Source: Lacrimispora celerecrescens
GTDB taxonomy: Bacteria; Bacillota; Clostridia; Lachnospirales; Lachnospiraceae
Reading direction: 5' to 3'
NCBI RefSeq assembly: GCF_000732605.1
Contig: NZ_JPME01000018.1
Location: forward strand, 1-64,000
Length of the DNA: 64,000 nucleotides
Shown here: positions 6,525 through 7,051 of the stretch, piece after piece
How the letters are laid out: every line of letters starts with the position of its first letter
Numbering within the stretch: the first letter of the stretch is position 1
Program-made: the position numbers and the translations under genes
Notes under the pieces: model-generated
What the model was told of the DNA's origin: nothing
Databases searched by the model: none
Seen by the model: only the letters and a program-made list of their open reading frames with translations

Positions 6525-7051
6525 CTCTTATTTATGATTCACGCTTGTTATAGATGTTGTTTGAGAATGTAAGCCTGATATCTGCCGCAGAGATGCTGCG
6601 GACCGATCGGCCTCAGCCTGGTTTCTGATCTGGTACCCGGCCGCCCGAAAAGCAATCTTTTGACCTTCCTTCTGGCCGGGCATGAGACCGAAAACTGTAC
6701 TGCAGCGAATGATCAGTGCGAGGCTGCTCCTCTGTTGCCATAACTGCATGACGGGACCGATACCGACGTCCCCGGGTTACCGGAGCTAGTCGGTTATCTA
6801 ATTCCGCTAGCAGACTGGCAGGCAGATACCATGTTTACATTTCATAAAGTGGGACACTTAACAGGTGTCTTTTTGATTTCTCTACCATTGAGATACGGTT
6901 CCATAACCGGCAGGATTTGAACCTGCAACAAATCAATTTGGGCGATTTTGTGGATTTATCTTCCACCTCGCATTTATATAATTCCTGCGGCATACCGAAC
7001 TGTATTACAGCCGGCACCATCCAGCTCTGTACGCTGGTATATAGCAGGCAA
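6525..7051 (-). other. Highly structured non-coding spacer between rtcB and slipin genes
   Basis: The 527 bases hold no convincing protein gene. Read on the minus strand they contain many hairpins in series. At 7037-7021 stem CCAGC/GCTGG encloses a 7-base loop GTACAGA, the geometry of an anticodon arm. CTGT-aat-ACAG lies within a larger stem near 7010-6990. GTGGA/TCCAC has a 7-base loop near 6965. The permuted tRNA-like module lies at 6926-6853. CGGGGAC pairs with GTCCCG near 6770. CCCGGCC pairs with GGCCGGG across about 6680-6630. CCGCAG/CTGCGG has a 5-base loop near 6600. G+C content is higher in 6540-6800 than in neighbouring genes. The density of stems suggests one or several functional RNAs processed from the rtcB operon transcript. 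Confidence 0.7.
6853..6926 (-). ncRNA. Circularly permuted tRNA-like RNA module (YrlA-like tRNA mimic candidate)
   Basis: In minus-strand order the module has a perfect T arm (GCAGG, loop TTCAAAT, CCTGC; 6926-6910). An acceptor-like stem CGGTT/AACCG (6909-6896) is closed by the tetraloop ATGG. TA follows in the place of U8-A9, then a D arm (TCTC, loop AATGGTA, GAGA; 6893-6879). After a 9-base linker comes a 5-bp/7-nt anticodon-like arm (GACAC, loop CTGTTAA, GTGTC; 6869-6853), whose loop would read GTT (Asn). Residues needed for the tRNA elbow (U8, A14, G18-G19, T-loop TTC) are all present, but the arm order is permuted and there is no free acceptor end or CCA. Bacterial Y RNAs of the YrlA class carry a tRNA-like module and occur near rtcB, so this is the nearest known relative. 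That assignment is inference. Confidence 0.7.

Follow-up and report, generated by a model that had tools for sequence, protein, structure and literature searches.

A slipin-linked, Y-RNA-like candidate tRNA mimic encoded beside rtcB in Lacrimispora celerecrescens

Here, we describe a candidate structured RNA that carries a tRNA-like module and is encoded between the genes for the RNA ligase RtcB and a slipin in Lacrimispora celerecrescens. The window, that is, the whole stretch of DNA analyzed, spans 64,000 nucleotides. On the sequence evidence given below, we think that it is probably a structured noncoding RNA of the minus strand, linked to slipin, which mimics tRNA in the manner of Y RNAs and belongs to an RNA-repair context. 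Its module (6873-6936, minus strand) runs from one strand of an outer stem through the T arm, the closed acceptor and the D arm to the other strand of that stem. As judged from its pairing, this module is a circularly permuted tRNA whose break lies in the anticodon loop, the outer stem corresponding to the anticodon stem. The tRNA elbow is, by the same token, kept by the T arm, the closed acceptor stem and the D arm, and the acceptor-like hairpin (6896-6909) is without a free acceptor end. A preliminary description of this DNA had already proposed the permuted order of T arm, closed acceptor and D arm, which the fold, the match to YrlA and covariation confirm on the minus strand. The interval that it gave, 6853..6926, holds these three elements and omits the 5′ strand of the outer stem (6931-6936). 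Its "Asn-like anticodon arm" was misassigned: the hairpin with the GUU triplet (6853-6869) lies outside the module, and the equivalent of the anticodon stem is the outer stem TTGATT/AATCAA. We dropped GUU as an Asn anticodon because the triplet varies among relatives, being GCT in the nearest ones (L002, L003) and different in others. Coordinates are collected in Table 1.

Table 1. Elements of the rtcB-slipin locus in the window, with the evidence bearing on each
Feature	Coordinates	Strand	Remarks
rtcB-slipin interval carrying the structured RNA	6525..7051	-	no open frame of at least 80 aa within
Outer stem, 5′ strand TTGATT (equivalent of the anticodon-stem 3′ strand)	6931..6936	-	pairs with 6873-6878; compensatory changes in relatives
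Variable-loop equivalent TGTT	6927..6930	-	ends in position 48, the partner of 15 in the Levitt pair (15-48)
T arm GCAGG-TTCAAAT-CCTGC	6910..6926	-	100% of cells paired in 73 sequences; YrlA match
Closed acceptor-like hairpin CGGTT-ATGG-AACCG	6896..6909	-	86% of cells paired; changes on both sides in 5/5 pairs
U8/A9 two-base linker and D arm TCTC-AATGGTA-GAGA	6879..6895	-	99% of cells paired
Outer stem, 3′ strand AATCAA (equivalent of the anticodon-stem 5′ strand)	6873..6878	-	pairs with 6931-6936; compensatory changes in relatives
Separate downstream hairpin GACAC-CTGTTAA-GTGTC	6853..6869	-	present in close relatives; loop triplet varies
Core A hairpin GGTGCC-N-GGTATGCC of slipin-type RNA	6989..7018	-	69/87 segments
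Long 3′ hairpin region, limited by the complementary stretches GGTATCTGCC and GGCAGATATC	6577..6830	-	whole-interval fold z -6.03
rtcB, RNA ligase	7052..8284	-	Pfam PF01139, 375.7 bits
Slipin (Band 7/SPFH)	5412..6524	-	Pfam PF01145, 92.6 bits; two extra N-terminal beta units (model)
Palindrome AAGTTCGCAACTT, divergent promoter region, possible operator	8359..8371		similar elements before the RNA or rtcB elsewhere
Companion regulator adjoining the WYL gene	8433..9698	+	no Pfam match; homologs beside many loci
WYL-domain regulator, divergent	9700..10677	+	Pfam PF13280, 22.5 bits (cut-off 21.8)

Comparative data argue that the permuted tRNA-like structure is real and goes beyond chance. Our alignment (A2) takes in all but two of 75 distinct modules, 73 in total; omitted were L060 and L074, which have long acceptor inserts, and the window sequence stands for itself and for the identical module of L002. 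Across these 73 sequences, pairing amounts to 89.8% of cells. For 17 of 20 pairs, at least one row has both partners changed, and double-change cells number 329 versus 112 in shuffles, cells being counts of sequences and not of events. None of 500 shuffles reaches any of the five observed covariation values, and sliding the pairing partners lowers pairing to 54% or less. The preliminary description had staked its structure on stem covariation in homologous loci; covariation is present, and the structure survives. The outer stem is paired in 78% of cells. When run on A2 without a given structure, RNAalifold recovers the T arm, the acceptor and the D arm, and misses the outer stem, in our opinion because MAFFT shifts its register in one clade. 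Of the 73 rows, 71 can form the tertiary 15-48 pair, as C-G in 65 and as U-A in 6. A module parser, which yielded 77 modules from 91 regions (14 failed) and is biased to paired solutions, gives 68 C-G, 7 U-A, 1 A-A and 1 G-G for 48-15. The U-A form may represent a single event, since it is confined to the window's own clade.

Folding energies are mixed. In isolation, the 68-nt module adopts the permuted tRNA shape (-17.8 kcal/mol, z -2.28, with 8/200 shuffles as good). A 141-nt piece does no better than shuffles (z -1.05, 26/200). When all 527 nt of the interval are folded, the minimum-energy structure pairs the T-arm strand elsewhere and does not favor the module. In our judgement, covariation outweighs this unfavorable whole-interval fold.

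At gathering thresholds, Rfam gives no match anywhere in the window. The YrlA model (RF02553), a comparison with which had been proposed in the preliminary description, matches the window's own stretch (L001) at 38.6 bits (E 2.3e-5 in 23 kb), below the cut-off of 69 bits and over positions 23-87 of 114, that is, the tRNA-like domain only. It also matches all eight further slipin loci tested (28.7-40.1 bits), slipin loci L102-L104 (34.7-42.7 bits) and three Ro60 loci (38.3-46.5 bits, again below 69), and none of five distant slipin loci tested (L011, L013, L014, L018, L020). Because it is below the cut-off everywhere tested, Ro60 loci included, the score cannot separate the slipin from the Ro60 type. 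In L037, L059 and L102-L104 the alignment spans the full model, so that a diverged Y-type stem is possible in these loci. Together with topology and covariation, the covariance-model match lends good support to the Y-RNA-like tRNA mimic that was among the original suggestions for this RNA.

The module is, as far as these loci indicate, conserved and closely linked to slipin. A slipin profile found 439 relatives in named genomes, of which the best 80 were kept and examined. Among these best 80 loci, 76 contain the module, and the window and these 76 score 57.7-79.8 bits. In most cases it is encoded on the slipin strand, about 300 to 900 bases upstream of that gene, with rtcB either before the RNA or after slipin. 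Two of the four loci without the module (L032, L070) end within 100 bases of slipin; the other two (L069, L100) keep core A, and L100 retains a second T arm, as though the module could be taken out like an insert. Within the genus, the RNA is present in 7 of 25 genomes, and the identical 7 carry this slipin as well as this rtcB, the latter whole or in pieces; in one further genome (G002), slipin is present only in pieces and the RNA is absent. Because slipin served as the bait for collecting these loci, linkage in the opposite direction was tested only within the genus and in one sample at class level. In the latter, a search for the module with R1 gave matches in 388 of 391 genomes, leading to 30 loci, one of them the window's own. 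R1 scores of up to 51.4 bits are also reached by tandem tRNA genes, and ARAGORN places tRNAs in 13 of 20 class-level loci. The remaining seven are of slipin type (L102-L104 and L108, the last assigned by eye only, from the start of one open frame) or of Ro60 type (L110, L116, L126). Besides the window's own locus, only L102-L104 score above the tandem tRNAs in this sample, and all adjoin a slipin gene. In distant slipin loci, R1 gives 15-19 bits (L011, L013, L014, L018), 36.5 bits (L020, in genome G234) or no match (L010, L012, L015, L016); the T arm and core elements are visible there by eye. The slipin profile had no match in viral contigs. A 27-base DNA match in G049 (L008) was dropped, with other genes around it.

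Outside the module, the slipin-type RNAs have a conserved hairpin of their own. The core A pattern, GGTGCC-N-GGTATGCC, occurs in 69 of 87 slipin-type segments as against 0-2 of 87 in 20 rounds of shuffling; the regular expression misses the other 18. In an alignment (A5) of 58 of 67 core A hairpins, with 9 close copies omitted, 86.8% of stem cells pair and 84 cells show double changes versus 35.5 in shuffles. The covariation signal is confined to three of five measures: pairs with a double change are no more frequent than in shuffles (417/500 reach the observed value), and pair types exceed them only slightly (12/500). Another element, GGATACCG, is found in 48 of 80 upstream regions of other slipin loci, closer to slipin, and is absent from the window's RNA. 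A second T-arm-like hairpin (e.g., TGCGG-TTCGAAT-CCGC) stands directly after an anticodon-arm-like hairpin, about 75 nt past the first T arm, in L055, L059, L064, L066, L077 and others, as well as in L013, L014 and L018; loci with this hairpin often show GGTTAAG upstream of the module. L014 also has a ZMP/ZTP riboswitch downstream of slipin (2767-2846, 63.1 bits).

Bacterial Y RNAs have been described as partners of Ro60, and Y RNAs of the YrlA type bear tRNA-type modifications made by TruB and Dus enzymes. We find no TROVE/Ro60 gene in the window's own genome, nor in any of 26 genomes with a slipin locus, some of them single contigs; the module is strong in 17 of these 26, moderate in one (G234, 36.5 bits) and weak or absent in the other 8. 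In an order-level sample, TROVE occurs in 2 and slipin in 11 of 392 genomes, with none in common, numbers so small that the lack of overlap says little. In the family of G644, TROVE is found in 7 and slipin in 3 of 14 genomes. Two genomes, G644 and G746, have both, and here the Ro60 and slipin systems lie at separate places with separate RNAs. Ten Ro60 loci of related Clostridia, from among L110, L116, L126 and L131-L148, carry the module, at R1 scores of 23.1-48.2 bits, which fall within the range of tandem tRNAs; these assignments rest on position, the Y stem and, for L110, L116 and L126, the absence of tRNAs. The last three adjoin genes with TROVE and Ro60 vWA domains. The Ro60 loci show a Y-type stem (e.g., GGCAGTGCAG...TACTTCG with CTCTAATCGATTTTCTCCC), the 5′ motif being found in 9 of the 10 loci, wherever in the locus it lies, and the core A regular expression matches none of the 10. 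The Y-stem motif, which was derived from few Ro60 loci, is absent from the window's RNA region and has one match in 80 slipin loci (L064), on the opposite strand and outside the RNA. Several Ro60 loci have WYL genes next to them, together with a promoter palindrome like that of the window. From these comparisons, the same module beside Ro60 is a sister arrangement, in one family under a similar promoter element. That the module is present in the window's genome, where we find no Ro60 gene, hints that it serves a second RNA-protein system besides that of Ro60.

How else might the RNA be explained? A cis-acting slipin leader, whose tRNA-like module would sense a tRNA-binding factor from within the mRNA and control slipin expression, strikes us as unlikely, though it deserves some weight. 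The module mostly keeps its distance from and orientation to slipin wherever rtcB lies, and we found no minus-strand terminator-like site between the RNA and slipin. On the other hand, in L053 the RNA, still behind rtcB, is parted from slipin by open frames of 687 and 129 aa (1442-3916); and the same module is found next to Ro60, a setting in which Y RNAs work as trans-acting tethers (PMC8394870). We consider it improbable that the RNA is a substrate or product of RtcB, cut and then circularized or re-joined by the neighboring ligase, as the preliminary description had also suggested. rtcB does adjoin the RNA in many loci, and a closed acceptor with permuted order would suit a re-joined RNA. 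However, tblastn detects no rtcB in 24 of the best 80 slipin loci, and among the 19 that remain once 5 with too little upstream DNA are set aside, 18 keep the module and slipin (at least 2.5 kb upstream and 0.4-4 kb downstream of slipin examined). Moreover, rtcB is interrupted or incomplete in three genomes of the genus (G004, G006, G023) that retain the RNA, and Rfam matched no known self-cleaving ribozyme in the window and the loci scanned with it. The suggestion is thus not supported.

A classical Y RNA, served by a Ro60 that is encoded elsewhere or was missed, would account for the homology of the module to YrlA and for those loci in which the YrlA alignment is complete. We rate its probability as very low, given the lack of TROVE in the slipin-locus genomes, the near absence of the Y-stem motif from slipin loci, and the two genomes that hold both systems apart, each with its own RNA. 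As no Ro60-type stem is recognized and another conserved core is present, the window RNA is, by its sequence, not a classical Y RNA. Nor is it a tRNA: a plain or permuted tRNA gene was ruled out, the acceptor being closed, the triplet of the downstream hairpin variable, and the ARAGORN count of tRNA genes in the window zero. Two adjacent tRNA genes could yield the same permuted order, with the T arm of one followed by the D arm of the next; R1 matches such tandem pairs, and the module may have originated in this way. That the present RNA is merely their decayed remnant, or a product of chance, is scarcely credible. ARAGORN predictions overlap the module in 3 of 60 relatives (L025, L058, L090), which we read as spurious, and a remnant would not maintain the covariation seen in the closed acceptor and outer stems.

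We return, then, to the Y-RNA-like tRNA mimic linked to slipin. The closest known structure is the tRNA-like domain of YrlA (RF02553; PDB 6CU1), which shares with the window RNA the T arm, closed acceptor and D arm permuted on an outer stem, similar linkers and loops, and an RNA-repair setting with rtcB. The window RNA differs in having no recognized Ro60-type stem, no Ro60 gene found in its genome and a score under the Rfam cut-off, and in having another conserved core hairpin and slipin as its neighbor. The Y RNAs at Ro60 loci of related Clostridia have the same module, and differ by their Y-type stem and by the lack of core A as searched by regular expression. Circular permutation of tRNA has already been recognized in a bacterial Y RNA (PMC11472068), and the YrlA-type module itself is described in PMC8394870. 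The YrlA of Salmonella is expressed from an rtcB operon responsive to damaged tRNAs (PMC7790460). Like the window locus, this rsr-yrlBA-rtcBA operon encodes a noncoding tRNA-mimic RNA with rtcB; it has Rsr (Ro60) and RtcR, whereas the window locus has slipin and the WYL pair. In an Anabaena trcR mutant, rtcB rises 77-fold and a slipin gene 42-fold, rtcB and a slipin operon being derepressed alike (PMC10272220). In the titles and abstract openings covered, which leave out central Y RNA papers, no slipin-linked Y-like RNA is named; rtcB and slipin appear together only in the Anabaena work, and none adds a tRNA-like RNA.

The promoter region offers a possible link to regulation, WYL regulators being, like rtcB, frequent neighbors of the conserved RNA. 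Palindromes of the form AAGTTCGCAACTT or GTTTGCAAC-N-GTTGCAAAC, with a run of T behind them, stand before rtcB or the RNA in both slipin and Ro60 loci (window, L012, L014, L016, L020, L069, L102, L104, L110, L126); slipin loci L102 and L104 thus have the promoter-region palindrome in common with Ro60 loci L110 and L126. Perhaps this palindrome is the operator of the WYL pair. Elsewhere in the window's own genome there is a second, distant RtcB-like gene (33% identity; G000:C3:208284-209333). On the minus strand of the window lie two overlapping frames (10661-11266 and 11244-11921), whose sequences resemble, to our eye, two parts of one cytochrome P450.

How might the RNA act? It would be made together with RtcB and slipin in an RNA-repair response under WYL regulators, the trigger perhaps being RNA damage or translation stress. 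By analogy with Ro60, which holds Y RNAs, slipin oligomers may hold the RNA by its core. The exposed tRNA elbow could then tether or decoy a tRNA-handling enzyme, candidates being PNPase (as in the Ro60 system), a tRNA nuclease or a modifying enzyme.

This slipin is an unusual one, and its predicted structure raises a further thought. The model (mean pLDDT 80, pTM 0.56) has three successive five-stranded units, the SPFH domain and a 64-residue C-terminal helix (pLDDT about 57-67); by eye, no membrane helix is seen in the sequence. In a Foldseek search with this model, stomatins come first (E 1.3e-14) and vault proteins rank 42-49 (E 3.2e-8 to 1.1e-7, about 400 alignment columns, TM 0.32-0.35, rmsd near 28). 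A slipin profile search up to E 1 returned only stomatins, QmcA, HflK/C and prohibitins, and no vault protein. In L020 (G234), the slipin (1444-3405) is about 640 aa long, with apparent extra copies of the N-terminal beta unit. The vault ribonucleoprotein is made up of the major vault protein and vault RNA. The window slipin may resemble it in its predicted beta units, SPFH domain and long helix, and in the RNA encoded beside it; it departs from it in lacking a sequence match to vault protein, in matching stomatins better and in having only three units. We therefore treat the vault likeness of the slipin as a lead, not a result. It is conceivable, though we are doubtful, that the locus encodes a bacterial vault-like RNP, in which a soluble SPFH protein of stacked beta units and a long helix would form a ring or cage with a dedicated RNA. 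The tRNA-shaped module would then be shared and exchangeable with Ro60-Y RNA, the two systems serving as parallel RNA-repair arms in Clostridia.

What matters most here is that many genomes with no Ro60 found in them retain this strongly covarying tRNA-mimic module, and do so within a different, slipin-associated RNA. If our reading is correct, the tRNA mimic would be separable from Ro60, SPFH proteins would gain a candidate RNA partner, and there would be a clue to the role of RtcB operons without Ro60. It opens the question of whether the mimic tethers nucleases such as PNPase, acts as a decoy against toxins that cleave tRNAs, or offers tRNA-modifying enzymes a handle.
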